A stretch of DNA of 64,000 bases from Dioscorea cayenensis subsp. rotundata (taxonomy: Eukaryota; Streptophyta; Magnoliopsida; Dioscoreales; Dioscoreaceae), in contig NC_052477.1 in NCBI RefSeq assembly GCF_009730915.1, positions 868,001-932,000 of the forward strand. The letters run 5' to 3'. Shown in pieces: positions 27,218-63,900 of this stretch. The notes below the pieces were generated by a model. That model did no database searches. It worked only from the letters and a program-made list of their open reading frames with translations, and was not told where the DNA came from. The translations under genes were made by a program, and so were the position numbers. Positions within the stretch are counted from its first letter, which is position 1, and each line of letters starts with the position of its first letter.

Positions 27218-27730
27218 TAGTGATGTCAAACGGGCTGGCCCGGCCCGGCACGGCCAGGGCCCCTACGACCCACGCACTATGCGTGCTCGGGCCGGCATGG
27301 CCCGTCTAGAAATCGTGCCGGGTCAGCACGGCCCGCCAACCACCAAGGTTGGCCCAGCACGTGGCCCGACCCGGTTATATTATATTTATATTTTTTATTT
27401 TGAACCCTAAAAATATAAAAAATACCCTAAATTTGCTAAAAAAATATAAAAAAATATCATAAAATTCAAAAACATAGAACTAAATGCCTTATTGACTAAA
27501 AAAACAAAAAATATACCAAAAAAATTAAAAAAATAGAAAAAAACTCGTATTTGGCGTGCTAGCCACGTAGTTCGAACAGGGTCACGGATCGCCTAGCCCA
27601 CTTGCTGCAAAACCCTTAGTCCAAAGACGGCCCAGGGGTTTGGGCAGTGCCTAGCCCTGAGACACGATCTATAGCACCGTGTTTGGGCCAAGCACGACCC
27701 AACTCGTGCACGGCCCGTTTGACACCACTA
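27218..27730. mobile_element. Non-autonomous hAT element (513 bp)
   Basis: 18-bp terminal inverted repeats: TAGTGATGTCAAACGGGC on the left and TAGTGGTGTCAAACGGGC (rc) on the right. A perfect 8-bp target duplication GAGTGGGT flanks it (27210-27217, 27731-27738). Ends rich in GGCCCGGC; AT-rich middle; no transposase. Confidence 0.92.
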
Positions 27731-28050
27731 GAGTGGGTGGTTCAAGTTGAGTTTAGGCACATGTTTTCCGCAAAAACAAGGCTACGTTTAATCTTATGGA
27801 GTGAGTCCTCGAGATGTGGTCTTGTTGCACATGGGGCTGCGGTGTCGTTGGTGGGGCTTCTACTTTTTAAGGGCCGGCACGGCCCGTTTGACACCACTAG
27901 AGTAGGTAGTTCAAAGCTGAGTTTAGGCACATGTTTTCCGTAAAAATAATGCTACGTTTAATCTTACGGAGTGAGTCCTCGAGATGTGGTCTTGTTGCAT
28001 ATGGGGCTGCGATGTCGTTGGTGGGGGCTTCTACTCTTTAAGGTTTGAGG
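27721..28050. repeat. 169-bp tandem duplication spanning the hAT right end and its flank
   Basis: gacaccactagagtgggtgg at 27721 recurs as gacaccactagagtaggtag at 27890, and the following 150 bp are nearly identical in both copies (acatgttttccg, tcctcgagatgtggtcttgt, gtcgttggtgggg). The second copy includes about 20 bp of the hAT terminus, so the duplication followed the insertion. Confidence 0.9.
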
Positions 28051-54815: not shown

Positions 54816-55756
54816 TATATTTTTGTGGAAATTGCCAAAAAAACCCTTTAAGTTTGTAAAATTGCCAAAAACACCCCGTTAGTTTTGCAATCCCTAAAAA
54901 CCCCCTCCTTTTAAACTCTATGTTTTTCAAACCCCCAAACCCTGTAACGGATGTGAGCGGAGTGAGTTTCAAATTTTATGGACGAAAATGCCCTTGCATG
55001 GGGAGTCGTGGCTGCAGCCATCTCGGCGATTTGAGAGGAAGTGGGGTGGTTTTCCGTAGAGTAACCCCAGAGACGAATTTATTAGAGCCGTTTACTTGCT
55101 TTTTTCTCAACTCGCGTCTTGACTCTTCCATTTCGAGCTGTCTCCGAGTTGTCTCTACTGCGAAAGCCTCTGTATTTGTAGCTTTTTCCTTTCCACCGGT
55201 ATCTCAAAGGAGAAGTACCCCGCGCAACTAGTTGGCATTTCATCAGTTTGCAATCTAAGGTATTGAGTATGGTTTTATGTTAGCTGCTCATTACAAAGAA
55301 AGATTTTTTTCGGTTTTGTTTTTGTGTTCTGCTTTTTGTTGGAAGATATTGAAGTCTGCAGGGGGATTTCTCGACTTGGGTTTTTGTTAGTCTGCAGGAG
55401 ATTTCTCGGCTAGGGTTTTGTTTTTGTTTTGCATTTTCGATCTGTATACACTATCGAAAAAGTTTTTTCGATTGTTATGATTTGTGTAATATTTATAATG
55501 TATATTTTCCTTTTCATTTGATATGGTTGCAGTTTTACAAATGAGGTTGACGTTTAAGAAATGAGATGTTACTGGGTTTAAGTTTTTGTTGTCATTTGTT
55601 TAAGTATTCTCGCTCTGCTTAATAAGATGGGTCTCTGTTTAACATTTGATATCTCCGTTTAATAAGCGAGAGTTTACCGCTTTAAAACCTTAAATTTGCG
55701 CTTAAACTTTTTGTGAATACTCGCATGTTGAATGTGTTGTTATTGTCGCAGTCGGT

Positions 55757-56575
55757 GATTATGGCGGTCAACCTAGTTAATGGGCGATGCTATTTGACAC
55801 CCGATGAGTGGAGACTTTAGTTGAATTGAAAAAAATAACATGACCCCTCGACACTCGGGAGATTATTCGACGGACACCGTTTGCTGCGTTCATCGAGTGG
55901 AAGCTATATACCAAGAGAGGGCCCTTCTTGATTCTCTTTTGCAAAGGTACGATGGTCGCACCAATAAATTCGGGGATCGGGAAAGCTCGCTGAGTTTCGG
56001 ACCTCAAGATGTGGCCCTCGTTCTTGGTCCGCGTTGCGATGGCGACGCGATGGTCTTTCGAAGAAGAAAACCCGGTCAGCGTTCGAAGGGTAGGTATCTA
56101 TCGAAAACCTCACGAGACGCAGAGACTCCATCAAGAGCACTCGGTGCAACTTGTTCGACGGAGGGAGAAGAAGATAATTTTTGTCAAACTCCGATGGTGT
56201 ACCTCATGGGTGCAGATCCCTCTTCCCAAATACGTCATGCTCGGTTCCGAATCGGATCGTTGATTATGTCGATGATCTACCAGACCCATGGGGCGATACG
56301 CATGGGCGCGAGGCGACGCACAAGTGGCTTATGGAGGATATTCCACAGCAGCCCGCTCGAGTGCAAGATAGATCGCTACGGGAAGAAGACCAACACGAGG
56401 GTACATTAAGGGTTGCTCGGTCGCGCTTAACGTCCGGTTTTACTGAGTGACCGGAACGGGGAAGAAAGTCCGTTTCGGCAAGATCCCAAGGATCTCTGTG
56501 CTACGGTGAAAGTACTTTCACGGGAAGCAAGCTGACGGTAGAAACCAGCTTGTCATCGCTCGATGGAAAAGAGGT
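55757..56575 (+). pseudogene. MULE-borne plant mobile / DUF1985-like domain remnant
   Basis: Starts ATGGCGGTCAACC at about 55760. Recognisable in different frames: ALLDSLLQRYDGRTNKF, FGPQDVALVLGPRCDGD, VYLMGA, NRIVDYVDDLPDPWG, KWLMEDIPQ, and GTGKKVRFGKIPRIS near 56460. The order is that of the N-terminal domain preceding Ulp1 in plant MULEs. Stops and several frame changes make it non-functional. Confidence 0.65.
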
Positions 56576-56879
56576 AATAAATCATGGACAATGTTTAACA
56601 TAAGTCTTTAATGTTTAAACATTTTATTTCGCGTTTAACTTTAGTATTTACCGTTTAACTATTATTCATACTGGTTTAAATATTTTGTTCTCCGTTTAAT
56701 TATATTCTATAACGTTTAAATATATAAACACTCTGTTTAAATATAGTTTTTTTATAGTTTAAAATGAATGATTTTCATTTGAAATTGTTTGGTTTACATA
56801 TATTAGTTTCTGAGATGGTTCCGGCTAATCGTTTGAAGAAGAAATATTTGTTGGGGAGCTAACTCGACGGACGGATGCT

Positions 56880-57735
56880 ATTGCTCCCGGAACCACTTGC
56901 TCGAGGCGGGATGAGAGAGCGACCTCTATCGTGCTGCTACTGACGCTGTTCTCCCTACTTCCAGCCCCACCACGCGCACGCATTCCTCGAGCCGGAGAAA
57001 CCCTCCCCTACCCAGGAAGATTGCAACAACCCCCTACCACGACAACGAGCGGTCCCCCGATTGTGGCGGCCCCGACCATGGCGACCCCTCCGGCAGTGGC
57101 GACCCACCCAGTGACATTAGGCGAAGATGTCACCGCAACTCTTATGCAGGGCATGCCGAGATATTGATGACCGAGTTTCCTCGGCTGTCGCTCGTGTTGA
57201 GGCAGCTGGAAGGGACGTTTCACAGCCACTGCGCCATCCCTCCAAAGACTGAAGCACCCGGGACGAGCGAGGCGTCGGAATTTGGCGACGACGACATCAT
57301 CGGGAAGGTCATTCCAAGGCGGCCACATTCGAAGAGACTTGCGAAAAAGAGGACAATGATAAACAAGAATACAGGCATTATTCTTCATGTCCGGGGTACG
57401 ATAAGGACGCGTTGGACATGGTAAGTTCTTTAATTATGTCCGATTAATATCCGTTTGGTATTTAATCGGTATTCTAATCTTGACTTGCATATCTCGGCAG
57501 TGGAATCTATTCGACAATTGTGTCGATATGGAGTTCGCGAGTCGTGACAACAAAGTACCCGCTCGCTGACGACTTGGAAACCCCACGCCAAAAAAACAAG
57601 GAAGCGTCGATTGCGCGCCCTACGTCATGCGGTTTATCGAGCAATTACTTTGGGGTGAGAAGTTACGGCTACCGCAGACGGGACGTTCCTTACCTCGGAT
57701 TAAGGTACGTTACCCGCGATACTTAAGGAGGGAGG
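56880..57735 (+). pseudogene. MULE-borne Ulp1-like (C48) protease remnant
   Basis: A proline-rich linker (56930-57160) is followed by a diverged segment and the protease C-terminus KQGSVDCAPYVMRFIEQ LLWGEKLRLPQT (57590-57690). The DC in QGSVDC corresponds to the catalytic Cys context of Ulp1 peptidases. Upstream catalytic His and Asp were not located, and the frame is interrupted. Confidence 0.55.
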
Positions 57736-59090
57736 GCAGCCGATGTCCATGACAAAGGGGGGTCGTCACAAGTGGGTTAAATTTTGTTTTTGAAGAACAT
57801 GTCCTGTATATCTCAATATCAATTTTTGTTTTTGAGTGTAAACTCGGACAAATTCAATTCATTGTTTTTGTTTTCGAAGAACATGACTTGTATATGTAAA
57901 TGTAAATTTTGTTTGTTTTGAATTGTAAAGCAGGTTAAATTCCATTCAGTTTCATTTCATTGTTTAATTTACGTTCTAATTGTGTACATTTCACTTTCAT
58001 TGTTTAAATATACTATATATCGTTTAAACATCAGATTGAAATATTTCAACTTACAGTGTATCCGTTTAAAATAACAATGTCTCTGTTTAAATACATTCAA
58101 TTCGGGTTAAAGAGTAAGAGTTTAAATATGGAAAGTTGCCCATCAATACACAATGTTTCCCTGTCATCGTCGGCTTATTTACAATGCCTAGTCGGCGACA
58201 GTTTCATTGCAAGATCGTCGATTGTGACCGGATCCATGGCAGCGGCTGCAATATAACGCTTGAAGACCAAAAAGTGCATAGAGGTTAGACTAGACGTGAT
58301 GTGATTGGGCGGTATTTTTCCCTCCATCAGAAGGGCAAAAAAGGAAAAATATATGCCACTGTCGCGATGAAGACGTATTGTCATCGCTCGACATGAGTAT
58401 CTGTTTAACAGTCAATTTTTTATGTTTAAACAGATACACATAGTGTTTAACATAACGATTACCGGTTTAAATAAAGTCTGCATCATGTAAATAATACGTA
58501 AAACGTTTAAATATAGTGACTTAACTGTTTAAAATATATGTTATTGTTTAAATTGAATGCTTTCACTGACATCGCGTTGAAGATGGGTACCTCCTACGTC
58601 ACTGTTTAAACATCTTTACGTATTTTCTTAAACACCGTTGTCATTGTTTAAAGAGTAACTTGAGTATTGTTTAACTTTTTCTATTGTTTACAATGACGTT
58701 CTTTTGTTTCCCACATTGTTTTTACTAGGTCTCTGTTTAAATTTCAGAAGTTCACATTCAAATAAAACATTCGTTTACAACATTTACAAAACATTTACAA
58801 GGACTTTGGACACTCATGACTCGACCCTCGTATAACGAAACAAGTGTCTGTACATTCGAATGCTCACAGCGGTTGCATAACATGCGCATCAACTTGAACC
58901 TGCACAACATACAACATTAAAAAAAAGGTTAAACAAACACATTCATGAAAACGACTATTAATCAATGTGTCATGGTCGGACTTAAGGGAAGATACTGGTA
59001 GTTAAACACGTAAAGCGACATAGTTGTACAGCGATGTAATGTTCTTAAGCAGTAACAAAAAGTCTCAGTGATAAATATCAACCCCGTCTT

Positions 59091-59338
59091 AAAGGATGTT
59101 TCCCGACCTCCCTCCTCTGAGAATCATCCGCAATCACGCATCACGTGAAAACTTTCTTTTCTTACCCAAGTCGAAAAGCTCGCTTAATTGCTTCCCGTCA
59201 TCCATCACGGAGAATCCTCCGCGATTCGTGCGATTATGCGAGCATTTCGGCTTGGGCAAGAAAAGATAGTTTAACTTGTTGCGTGATTACGGCTGATTGA
59301 TTCTCAAGATAAGGAAGGAGGTTCACGAAACATCCTTT
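59091..59338. other. Long imperfect hairpin (arms of about 100 nt)
   Basis: The outer pair is AAAGGATGTTTCCCGACCTC with its near-complement at 59315-59338; the inner pair CTTTTCTTACCCAAGTCG matches the rc of 59241-59275 with few mismatches. The middle is a partly paired loop. Located inside the MULE. Confidence 0.8.
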
Positions 59339-59549
59339 CAGATAGAGTGGTTGTCCATGGGAAGAGGAGGAGGAGGAGGATGATGATGAGGACGACGACG
59401 AGTGGTTGTCCATGGGAAGGGTTCTTCCTGATTATTTATGGTGTGAAGTCCACAAGCAGGCTGACTCTTCATATCCGAGAAAAAAATCAAACGCACAGTG
59501 GACCGACATTGACTGATTACAACGAACGGGTGTTCGGATATTTATGTTA

Positions 59550-59591
59550 CCGTGCATAAGAATTAATGCCGTCATTAATTCTTATGCACGG
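59550..59591. other. Perfect 19-bp inverted repeat with 4-base loop
   Basis: CCGTGCATAAGAATTAATG at 59550-59568 is exactly complementary to 59573-59591. Confidence 0.95.
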
Positions 59592-59669
59592 GATACCATA
59601 ACCTTGCCACCTGCCAACAATTCAGATCAAACGAAAAAGATCACCGTTTTACTGCGAGACTTTGAGAAT

Positions 59670-59860
59670 TTAAACGTTAATATGAAAAGTTATACATGTA
59701 AAGATAATATTAAACGGAGATGACAAGTATTAAACGGATATGACAATTATTAAACATATTAGTAATATATTTAAACGGATAATAGCAAATAGTTAAACAT
59801 TATTTAAAATATACAAAAAGATAACAATAAACGAAATGAACTCGTTTTCAAACGGAGACG
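59670..59860 (-). repeat. Inverted-orientation TTAAAC array (20-22 bp phase)
   Basis: TTAAAC (rc of GTTTAA) ends at 59675, 59715, 59735, 59755, 59776, 59798 and 59853, continuing the phasing of the left arm but in the opposite direction. Confidence 0.8.
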
Positions 59861-60407
59861 ACAATCGCACATGCTCTGCCTCGACAATAAAATCGAATAC
59901 AGCTCATTTGAAGATGAAGTGCACTTGACCAATCCGATGGAAATCAACTTAATTTTCTGTTGGAGAAACCGATTTATATATTTCGGGTATGATAAACTTC
60001 ACCCAGACTACCACAAATGAGCTGCCATAATAAACTCCGACTGAATGGTCAAACTGATAGCAACGAAGAGATTCTCACCAGTACATGCAACCGGCGGAAT
60101 CGAAGTCGAACAACTCAAATGAGGAGAAATGAGGAGAACAACAAGATGTAATGCAACTCCTATACATTGTGTATCAGAAACCAAGCAGAAAGCCCTTGAA
60201 AAGGTTGAACATGATGATTTGACACTTTTCTTTCCCACCATTTTCAAGGCCAAAAATGGGATTTCACAACATGGACCCATTTGAAGTGAACGGTAGGGGG
60301 TAATAGGGAAGTTAAACACTAACGGAAGGGATGTCCGGGGTGTGTAAAAGTAGGAGGGGATTTTTGGGAAGTTTTGAAAATTATGAAGGGTGAACATTAA
60401 TTTTTCC

Positions 60408-60952
60408 TATATTTTTTGATATTTTTAAAATAAAAATTATAATTATTACTTTAAATTCTTGGGTTGTTTATTAATTTAACAAACATCACCGCCGCAATAA
60501 ACAAGTGATATTGTCCTTAAGTCTTATCTGGAAAGTCGTGAGTTCAACTTCTTTCACAAATAGTTTTAAAGTTATCGTTAGTTATTTTAGTTGTTGAATT
60601 TGAATTTAATAAAACTATTTTTTTTTTTATGTTTACCTATTTTGGAGATTTTATAAAAATAGAAGGGCCAAATCGAATAAAAGCATATAATTTATGAAAA
60701 ATGAAATTAAAAATATATATATATATAGGCTCTAAGCCCAAAAATGGGTTTTGAGCCCAAGCCCATTAAAATTGCAATCTCAATTTGAGTTTCTTGGGCC
60801 CAAATCAACATTATCTAAAAGCCCCCCTTAGTTTTCTAGTTATTTGTTATTTTGCAATTTAGCCCTTGAATCCCAAGTTTTCATTAGAATTAGACCCATC
60901 TTCACTTCCATATCGTTTTTTTCCCGGGAACGACGGCCGGAAAAACTCCGCC
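60408..60952. other. Invertase 5' flank
   Basis: AT-rich to 60730, then a unique-looking leader. At 60715-60830 there are ggctctaagcccaaaaatgg and cccattaaaattg words of unknown origin. No gene is seen. Confidence 0.4.
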
Positions 60953-63900
60953 ATGAAGCCATATCGCCGGCTCTTATCACATCTCTATAAGATTTCCTTA
61001 TTCTTCCCGGAATGCCCCCACCGCCGGTTCATCGCCGGCGCTGGTCACGATTGGCCCCGAACCATGGGCGTGCTCGGAATTCCCATTATACGTCCGGGCA
61101 GGGGCGTCCTGGGAACAACCATTCGCTGCTACTCCACCTCGGTGGAGACGATCGCCGGAGAGAAGCCCTTTGATCGTGCCTGCCTGCAGAGCATCTCCGT
61201 GAAGCCTCTCGTGCTCGATGGCGTGGATGCTGGAGCTTTGGAGGAGGAGGAGGAGAAGTGGGAGGATCTGGGAAGCGAGAAAGGAGGGAATTTGGAGGAT
61301 TTGGGTGTTGTGGAGGTGAAAGGGAGGGAGGAATCGGAGGTGGAGAAGGAGGCTTGGCGGCTGCTTAATCGGGCGGTGGTGAAGTATTGTGGTAGTCCGG
61401 TGGGCACCGTGGCGGCGGATGATCCGGCGATGGCGAACCAGATGCTTAATTATGATCAGGTGTTCATCAGGGATTTCGTGCCCTCTGCCCTTGCTTTTCT
61501 TCTCAAAGGAGAGGGCGAGATTGTTCGGAATTTTCTCCTCCACACCCTTCAATTGCAGGTAAAAATCTCAGCTTTTTTTTGGCTTTCCAATCGATTTCGT
61601 CTATTTTGTGCATTGAATTATGGATGTAGTTTAGAAATTTCGATTATATATCTCTTGATTTGCTATTTTGAAGCATTATATATTTTGGAAGGTTGTTTAG
61701 AAATTTGCGTATTGTTTATGAATTGAATTATGAATGTAGTTTAGAAATTTTGGTATGACATTCTCTTGATCAAGCGTTTATTCAACTCGCAACAAAATGA
61801 TATTTTTCGAAAGGCTAGTTTAAACAGTTCAGTAATTTAGAGAATTATGAGATGTTTGCATAGACGGCAACATGCTATCTAGAGAGTAAGCAAATCTATA
61901 CATAAGTTTTGTACATTTGATTTCTTGTCTGGTTGAATCGTTGTTATATTGATCACATACCTACGTATAACAAGCAGCAAGCATTCTCTTTTACAGTTTT
62001 GAATTTATAGTTGACTAAATACTTGCAAGGCTCTGAAGACCATATGCTGCACCCCTAGCAATGTTAGTGTATTTTCATCACTTTGACACAAAATAGAATA
62101 GAGAAAATTAAAACTTTCTCTTTTGTTGGATTGTGTTGTGTAACATTTGTGGAGTCAATACAACTTTCCTTTGGTACATGTATAAATTTGTTCTTTATTT
62201 TGCTCTTGGATTTGCCTTCCCATAGCTGTTGCAATCTTTCTTTGATTAAATCTAAGAGAGTTATCATTTTCATCTCTCGGGGATGACATGCTATTACACT
62301 TGACGCCATTTTTTGCTATTGTGTTCTGTGCTGCTATAATTGATGTGTTTACCCATTTATCCCCTCGATTTACACTTGTTGCTAAAGGACCATTCTTCCT
62401 GTCTGTGCAGAGCTGGGAGAAGACTGTAGATTGTTATAGCCCTGGACAAGGATTGATGCCAGCTAGTTTTAAAGTTAGAACTGTATCTTTGGATGGAAAC
62501 AATCAAGCGTTCGAGGAGGTTTTAGACCCTGATTTTGGTGAATCAGCAATTGGCCGTGTGGCTCCTGTTGATTCAGGTGAGCCAATGATGGGTGGTGATT
62601 CTTTATTTAATCGTTTTATCTTCTAGTCTGTGATAAGGAAGTATATATTAATTGCTAAGCCTTTTGATTCACATCTCATTTTTCTTATGATGCCAGGATT
62701 ATGGTGGATTATTTTACTGAGAGCTTACGGAAAGATTACAGGAGACTATGCTCTGCAAGAGAGAGTGGATGTACAAACAGGCATCAGATTGATCATGAAC
62801 TTATGTTTATCAGATGGTTTCGACATGTTTCCGTCTCTTCTTGTCACTGATGGTTCGTGTATGATAGACCGCCGAATGGGAATCCATGGGCACCCTCTTG
62901 AGATCCAAGTAAGTTTACTCTTCCAAATAATCACTTTACAAAAGTACAATGTTTTTGGTTGAGTTTTATTTATTTATTTTCTATTCCACAGGCTTTGTTT
63001 TATTCAGCTTTGCGTTGTGCCAGGGAATTGCTCTCTGGCAATGAAAGCTCAACAAATCTAGTCCGCGCCATTAATAACAGGCTCAGTGCTTTGTCTTTCC
63101 ACATCAGAGAGTATTACTGGGTGGATATGAAGAAAATTAATGAAATATATCGGTATAAAACTGAAGAATATTCACACGATGCTATTAACAAGTTCAATAT
63201 CTATCCCGATCAAATTCCTTCTTGGCTGATGGATTGGATTCCTGATCATGGCGGCTACCTTATTGGCAATCTGCAACCAGCTCACATGGATTTCAGGTTC
63301 TTCTCACTTGGAAATCTCTGGGCTATAGTCTCATCTTTAGCCACACCGAGACAAGCTGAGGGAATTCTTAATCTTATCGAGAACAGATGGGATGATCTTG
63401 TGGGTAACATGCCTCTCAAAATATGTTATCCGGCTTTAGAATATGAGGACTGGCGTATTATCACTGGCAGTGATCCTAAGAATACGTGAGTTATCTTGAT
63501 TTTTATCCACACATTAGAAGTGAAAATTTATCGGTTCTTTTTTTGTATCACAGCCCTTGGTCGTATCATAATGGAGGCTCTTGGCCTACACTGCTCTGGC
63601 AGGTGATTGATTGTTTGTTCATCTTCCATTCTCCGGGTTTGTTGTAAACTCTTGCATTTGACTGGTTTGTGCTTTTCTTGTTTCAGTTCACGTTGGCTTG
63701 CATTAAAATGGGCAGACCCGGGCTAGCAGAGAAAGCTATTGCTGTGGCAGAAGAGAGGCTTTCAAATGATAAATGGCCAGAGTACTATGATACAAGAACT
63801 GGAAGATTTATTGGCAAGCAATCCCGACTCTATCAGACATGGACCATTGCTGGGTTTCTGACTTCCAAGATGTTTTTAGAAAATCCGGAGATGACATCCA

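Follow-up and report, generated by a model that had tools for sequence, protein, structure and literature searches.

VANC21, the anti-silencing protein of the Arabidopsis transposon VANDAL21, binds a nine-base motif that occurs in one orientation and at high density in the introns, intergenic regions and terminal non-coding parts of the element (Hosaka et al. 2017, PMC5735166). In that study, single-base substitutions cut binding drastically in vitro, motifs at low density elsewhere are left unbound, methylation is lost at the targets, and VANC6 works through motifs other than those of VANC21. The regions on which VANC acts overlap with those methylated under the direction of small RNAs (PMC10398659). 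Here we describe five arrays of the hexamer GTTTAA in a decayed Mutator-like element (MULE), located in a 64-kb window (the whole stretch of DNA analysed), and suggest that they are probably clustered target sites of a VANC-type protein. Arrays of this kind are already known, and the fit is limited to features visible in the sequence. The abstract of Sasaki et al. 2022 reportedly names a motif sequence, its density and a helical periodicity. The first-pass annotation of this DNA stated that no description of such a pattern was known, which does not hold, as short, dense VANDAL motifs in one orientation are described as VANC sites in PMC5735166 and PMC10398659.

The arrays resemble those of VANDAL21 in several respects: a short, dense motif in one orientation, its position in the non-coding parts of a MULE, and lone motifs elsewhere (PMC5735166). 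In VANDAL21 the motif copies are linked to tandem duplication; our arrays contain some duplication, but most of their spacers are near random. The two differ in the motif itself, which is YAGTATTAY in VANDAL21 and has 0 matches in our element, and in that binding and methylation loss are demonstrated for VANDAL21 only; the text of PMC5735166 searched for spacing, interval and helical does not discuss spacing. The VANC6 arrays of VANDAL6/8 likewise consist of a short motif (AGTTGTCC, AGTTGTAC) in non-coding tandem repeats (same source), whereas the whole element here contains one match. VANC genes with Ulp1 are reported to act on motifs in their own kind of element, and the KIU MULEs that bear them combine Ulp1 with motif arrays, as our element may do (reviewed in PMC13317346). 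Here, however, the Ulp1 match is sub-threshold, and the VANC domain and the transposase were undetected. The SIRC repeats of Arabidopsis are also short direct repeats with unrelated spacers and are common in transposons including VANDAL, and the text of PMC10342631 that was searched mentions no period. They measure 10-29 bp and come in 2-8 copies, whereas our arrays consist of a 6-bp exact repeat with weak flanks, up to nine in a row (B2), at a fixed period. Finally, CACTA elements carry subterminal TnpA sites, i.e. short-motif clusters that face each other near both ends. Facing clusters towards both ends are found here as well, and TnpA is named as countering methylation (PMC10706983), but our element has most of its cores in inner arrays and a duplication of 9 bp.

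GTTTAA cores recur every two helical turns

Between 55500 and 58800 the + strand contains 31 exact copies of GTTTAA, compared with a mean of 2.06 and a maximum of 8 in 1000 dinucleotide shuffles. Sixteen pairs lie 20-22 bp apart (shuffled mean 0.004, maximum 1). As a local control, in which AT-rich stretches stay AT-rich, the sequence was shuffled inside 150-bp segments (n = 1000); this resulted in a mean of 2.49 and a maximum of 10 copies, and a mean of 0.006 and a maximum of 1 pair. We then compared GTTTAA with the other hexamers of the window, using all 3701 that contain at least three different letters. Gaps of 19-22 bp between neighbouring copies number 17 for GTTTAA in the whole window, whereas the runners-up, its reverse complement and the overlapping TGTTTA, reach 5 each, followed by 3. 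Similarly, the longest GTTTAA chain has nine members, and no hexamer other than these three exceeds a chain of 3. These results confirm that the periodicity is real and not due to chance. The nine cores at 56593-56757 are spaced exactly as the first-pass annotation gave them (20, 20, 20, 21, 20, 20, 21 and 22 bp), and the comparison with shuffled sequence that it proposed places the spacing in this element far above the shuffles.

The whole element carries 37 exact cores in five arrays (Table 1). Core orientation is uniform in B1-B4 and reversed in B5, where TTAAAC is found at 59670, 59710, 59730, 59750, 59771 and 59793, i.e. with spacings of 40, 20, 20, 21 and 22 bp. The pattern was originally assigned to 55550-58745; the arrays in this interval are borne out, but the extent was incomplete, B5 lying beyond it. 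The element also contains one + strand core at 59269 and, in addition to those of B5, ten minus-strand cores, four of which are the opposite strand of the palindromic GTTTAAAC inside + arrays.

Table 1. Position and content of the element, its coding remnants and its GTTTAA arrays (coordinates of the 64-kb window).
Feature	Coordinates	Strand	Remarks
Putative 9-bp target-site duplication, left copy, TATATTTTT	54816-54824		exact match to 60408-60416
Decayed Mutator-like element, 5583 bp	54825-60407	+	imperfect terminal inverted repeats
Array B1	55552-55662	+	5 exact cores; GC 0.33
Coding remnant A	55757-56572	+	stops and frameshifts; GTTTAA absent from both strands; no Pfam match
Array B2	56593-56762	+	9 consecutive exact cores; best period 20.40 bp
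Coding remnant B	56826-57421	+	no GTTTAA
Coding remnant C	57500-57764	+	sub-threshold match to Ulp1 protease (Peptidase_C48)
Array B3	57962-58125	+	6 exact cores and 3 degenerate slots
Possible coding remnant D	58150-58398	+	no GTTTAA; no Pfam match
Array B4	58403-58740	+	11 exact cores: 7 in tight phase (58403-58551), 4 loose (58604-58740)
Array B5	59670-59798	-	6 exact cores; best period 20.40 bp
Putative 9-bp target-site duplication, right copy	60408-60416		exact match to 54816-54824

To determine the common period, we summed the power of the blocks, which peaks at 20.45 bp with a value of 30.6 (mean 11.3, maximum 17.0 in 300 random placements). Regression on 33 of the 37 cores resulted in a period of 20.36 +/- 0.10 bp, which corresponds to two turns of 10.2 bp. 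The loose four-core part of B4 (58604-58735) was kept in the block power and omitted from the regression; taken alone, it favours 21.9 bp. Both approaches thus agree with the earlier estimate of about 20.5 bp, or two helical turns. The further claim of one phase for all blocks stands only in part: period and phase are shared within blocks. Between blocks the fitted phases differ, and the 0.1-bp error of the period accumulates across the long gaps, so that these differences speak neither for nor against a common phase.

The cores are kept while the sequence between them is nearly free. An exact core occupies 37 of the 48 slots of the register. Across all 48, letter agreement is 85-98% in the core columns and 31-62% in the seven columns to either side, although the 11 non-exact slots were placed at the best match within 2 bp, so that core agreement is favoured. 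These 11 empty slots show on average 2.5 mismatches at the best fit, compared with 3.4 by chance, and six of them have at most two mismatches, where 24% of slots are expected to. Three degenerate sites on register had been pointed out at 57982, 58043 and 58487 (58485 in our placement); each has two mismatches. Taken together, degenerate sites on register are modestly supported.

For the spacers, we used the 21 that separate exact cores 19-22 bp apart, and 300 shuffles. Identity is 0.415 over all 210 pairs (shuffled 0.374, maximum 0.399) and 0.432 within blocks (0.384, maximum 0.430). In the 13 adjacent pairs it is 0.426 against 0.378, inside the shuffle range (maximum 0.479). The spacers are therefore near random, with a slight overall similarity left and adjacent units no more alike than shuffled ones. 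That the spacers are not conserved, as had been proposed, is correct in this sense, but plain duplication is present in places: two B5 units are 86% alike, and tandem periods of 61 bp (75%) and 20 bp (92%) are found in 56612-56744 and 59708-59755, respectively. In addition, weak similarity connects units from different blocks. Among the 37 cores, the flanks display Y at -1 in 32 (p = 1e-4), C at -2 in 15 (p = 3e-5), T at -5 in 26 (p = 9e-4), and A or C at +6 in 28 (p = 8e-5); these preferences are weak, the columns were chosen after inspection, and the sites are not independent.

Element ends, coding remnants and CpG content

All four coding remnants are devoid of the core on either strand, compared with 37 cores in the five AT-rich array stretches. 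The GC content is 0.46-0.57 in the remnants and 0.20-0.33 in the arrays. The alternation of blocks with coding remnants, seen in the first pass, thus takes the form of arrays in AT-rich stretches between GC-rich remnants. We refer to the array stretches as non-coding because of their base composition and because coding remnants are missing from them. A short motif in one orientation, at high density and outside the coding remnants is the arrangement known from VANDAL/VANC arrays.

MULEs generate target-site duplications of 8-11 bp, and VANDAL elements have 9-bp duplications and short degenerate terminal inverted repeats (PMC6446971). The ends of our element agree with this, as it is bordered by a 9-bp duplication and has imperfect inverted ends. 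The inverted alignment of the ends has a local score of 48 (mean 25.2, maximum 43 in 1000 shuffles), and, with both ends fixed to within 2 bp, a perfectly duplicated 9-mer would arise by chance with a probability of 0.0005, based on the local flanks. However, the selection of the ends followed a wider scan and the duplicated 9-mer is all A/T, so that the true ends may lie a few bases away. A blastn comparison with the rest of the window resulted in no convincing copy of the element (best E = 0.079 among the matches listed), and tblastn with remnants A and C gave nothing convincing in the same sequence (best E = 3.7).

The element has an observed/expected CpG ratio of 1.19 and the arrays one of 1.66; the corresponding TG/CA ratios are 1.00 and 1.03. 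Elsewhere in the window, 493 windows of element length have a mean CpG ratio of 0.47 and a maximum of 0.74; among these windows no other transposon was identified as a control. A transposon methylated at CG over a long time should lose CpG, and the high content therefore fits escape from methylation.

Further searches were directed at the remnants. Remnant A had been read by eye as DUF1985/DUF287, which was not borne out by the domain scan. AlphaFold modelling of 110 of its residues resulted in a predicted local distance difference test (pLDDT) score of 41.8, and a search of the PDB sequences with remnant C gave 0 hits at E up to 10. Three pattern matches to remnant A in viral contigs contained 0 relatives. 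Among 24 pattern matches in genome contigs, one locus in a Treponema metagenome-assembled genome was retained (E = 2e-5, relative to the candidates only). We rejected it as a chance match, as the alignment contains two stops and runs antisense to a 446-residue frame; the locus has 0 GTTTAA and 1 TTAAAC.

Several other features were recorded in the element. A strong inverted repeat lies at 59084-59345, between B4 and B5, and the RNA fold of 59080-59350 has an energy of -131.8 kcal/mol (z = -14.5; equalled by none of 200 shuffles); it could be a nested foldback element or a hairpin able to feed small RNAs. A perfect 19-bp inverted repeat with a 4-bp loop is located at 59550-59591. Two AT-rich, core-free 52-nt copies, 81% alike and 84 bp apart, directly precede B3 (57782-57917). 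Rfam and tRNA searches gave 0 matches each.

An alkaline/neutral invertase gene (60954-63489) follows the element, with its start codon, as read, about 0.5 kb downstream; a later stretch of the gene matches Glyco_hydro_100 (E = 9e-83). The GC content at third codon positions of this gene is 0.66 in the first exon, as read, and 0.37 in the later stretch, compared with 0.39-0.46 in other genes of the window. The high value of the first exon was considered as a sign of a monocot and dismissed in view of these other genes. We also scanned ten long frames elsewhere in the window, and those with a match belong to NB-ARC/LRR, DUF247, PPR and invertase genes. Resistance-type NB-ARC/LRR reading frames are clustered over 1621-33841, together with two genes of the DUF247 family, and a 170-bp unit is present in two tandem copies (92% matches) at 27708-28043.

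A VANC-type reading of the arrays and its rivals

We propose, with a probability of roughly 0.6, that the arrays are clustered sites for a VANC-type anti-silencing protein and that the element is a decayed, now non-autonomous MULE of the VANDAL/KIU sort. A sequence-specific protein encoded by a transposon would recognise a core near TnnYY-GTTTAA-M, and steps of ~20.4 bp, i.e. two helix turns, would align adjacent protein molecules along the same side of the helix and allow joint binding. The protein would recognise dense arrays rather than single hexamers. By binding in the non-coding parts, it would remove cytosine methylation and so permit expression and movement of the element. The present, decayed copy would be served in trans by an intact relative, and such service could explain why its sites have been kept. 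Among the readings offered in the first pass, the best fit is that a DNA-binding protein has its sites in helical phase along a MULE, with the core kept and the spacers free. The candidate binders named there were a transposase, a host protein and a nucleosome; a DNA-binding protein does fit, but the list left out a VANC-type protein.

Several observations weigh against this proposal. Neither published motif is arrayed in the element, YAGTATTAY having 0 matches and AGTTGT[CA]C one, which is tempered by the fact that motifs differ between VANC families. No scan revealed a transposase, and the six whole frames of the element gave no Pfam match at all, MURA-type transposases included; this copy would either be non-autonomous or have decayed too far. 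The Ulp1 match of remnant C (15.5 bits, E = 0.016; 16 bits, E = 0.011) is below the Pfam cut-off of 20.7 bits and disappears in the scans of the six whole frames with X at stops, scans which may be insensitive on long broken frames. DUF1985 and DUF287 were not detected in pieces and read-through, where matches up to E = 10 were considered, nor in the whole frames; as the remnants are broken, this absence is weak evidence. Remnant A has no relative among the PDB sequences (0 hits at E up to 10). Only three donor-like sites match at least 7 of 9 positions, and the best of them (57421), the only strong one close to the exons, opens a short, array-free gap, so that intron boundaries are unsupported. 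Moreover, CpG is uneven, with ratios of 0.84 and 0.77 in the terminal parts and 0.86 around B3 (TG/CA 1.49); the array counts are small and stem partly from CGTTTAA itself; CpG is high as well in the right flank, next to the gene (0.97); and the excess could be explained by a recent arrival or a nearby promoter.

The arrays might instead be sites for the transposase of the element or for a TnpA-like accessory protein, involved in end pairing or excision and not in anti-silencing. We consider this the next-best explanation, though an unlikely one, because B1 (+) and B5 (-), the arrays furthest out, point towards one another in the fashion of subterminal repeats. However, the internal arrays B2-B4 hold 26 of the 37 cores, the outer arrays start 727 and 609 bp from the element ends, and the 9-bp duplication is unsuited to CACTA elements, which duplicate 3 bp. 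On the other hand, Ulp1-like domains are found in CACTA elements too (PMC2528002), in line with this reading. It appears improbable that the pattern serves host factors in place of a transposon protein, as a signal that places nucleosomes, bends DNA or acts at the RNA level (intron). Its period corresponds to two turns of 10.2 bp, near the helical repeat of nucleosomal DNA, and the arrays are AT-rich, as stated above. Yet signals of this type do not need an exact hexamer on a single strand with a flank preference such as the Y at -1, and a splicing signal is disfavoured by the reversal of B5 relative to the coding remnants.

We also disfavour, as quite improbable, an old neutral 20-bp minisatellite, in which the periodicity would be a relic of tandem duplication. 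The duplications within B5 and in 56612-56744 and the weak similarity between units of different blocks are what it predicts. Neutral decay, however, would not have spared the core, and the cores are exact in 37 of 48 slots over adjacent spacers at shuffle level. Recent repeats of the same pattern differ from our arrays in this respect: a search of viral contigs for four cores with spacings of exactly 20 bp gave 7 loci, and in the six arrays inspected the spacers are alike and the units look like plain tandem repeats by eye. Chance in AT-rich sequence is refuted, for although GTTTAA is itself AT-rich, the local shuffles that preserve AT-rich stretches yield no more than 10 cores and a single pair, against 31 and 16.

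Within the VANC-type reading, we can only tentatively suggest that the system uses a code of its own, with exact GTTTAA at 20.4-bp steps, specificity residing in both spacing and sequence, and past activity readable from the CpG preserved in a dead copy; we hold this version to be rather doubtful. The literature searched, a search that did not reach Sasaki et al. 2022, contained no report of GTTTAA as an array motif, and neither a VANC/VANDAL system with periodicity nor a Mutator-like element with helical phasing was found in it. Should the host not belong to the eudicots, the system would fall beyond the plant group to which published work assigns VANC. If our reading is true, the arrays would represent the target code of an uncharacterised transposon anti-silencing protein. 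Helical autocorrelation could then reveal such codes in raw sequence, independently of methylation data, and preserved CpG in decayed copies would be a simple pointer to elements that escaped methylation.

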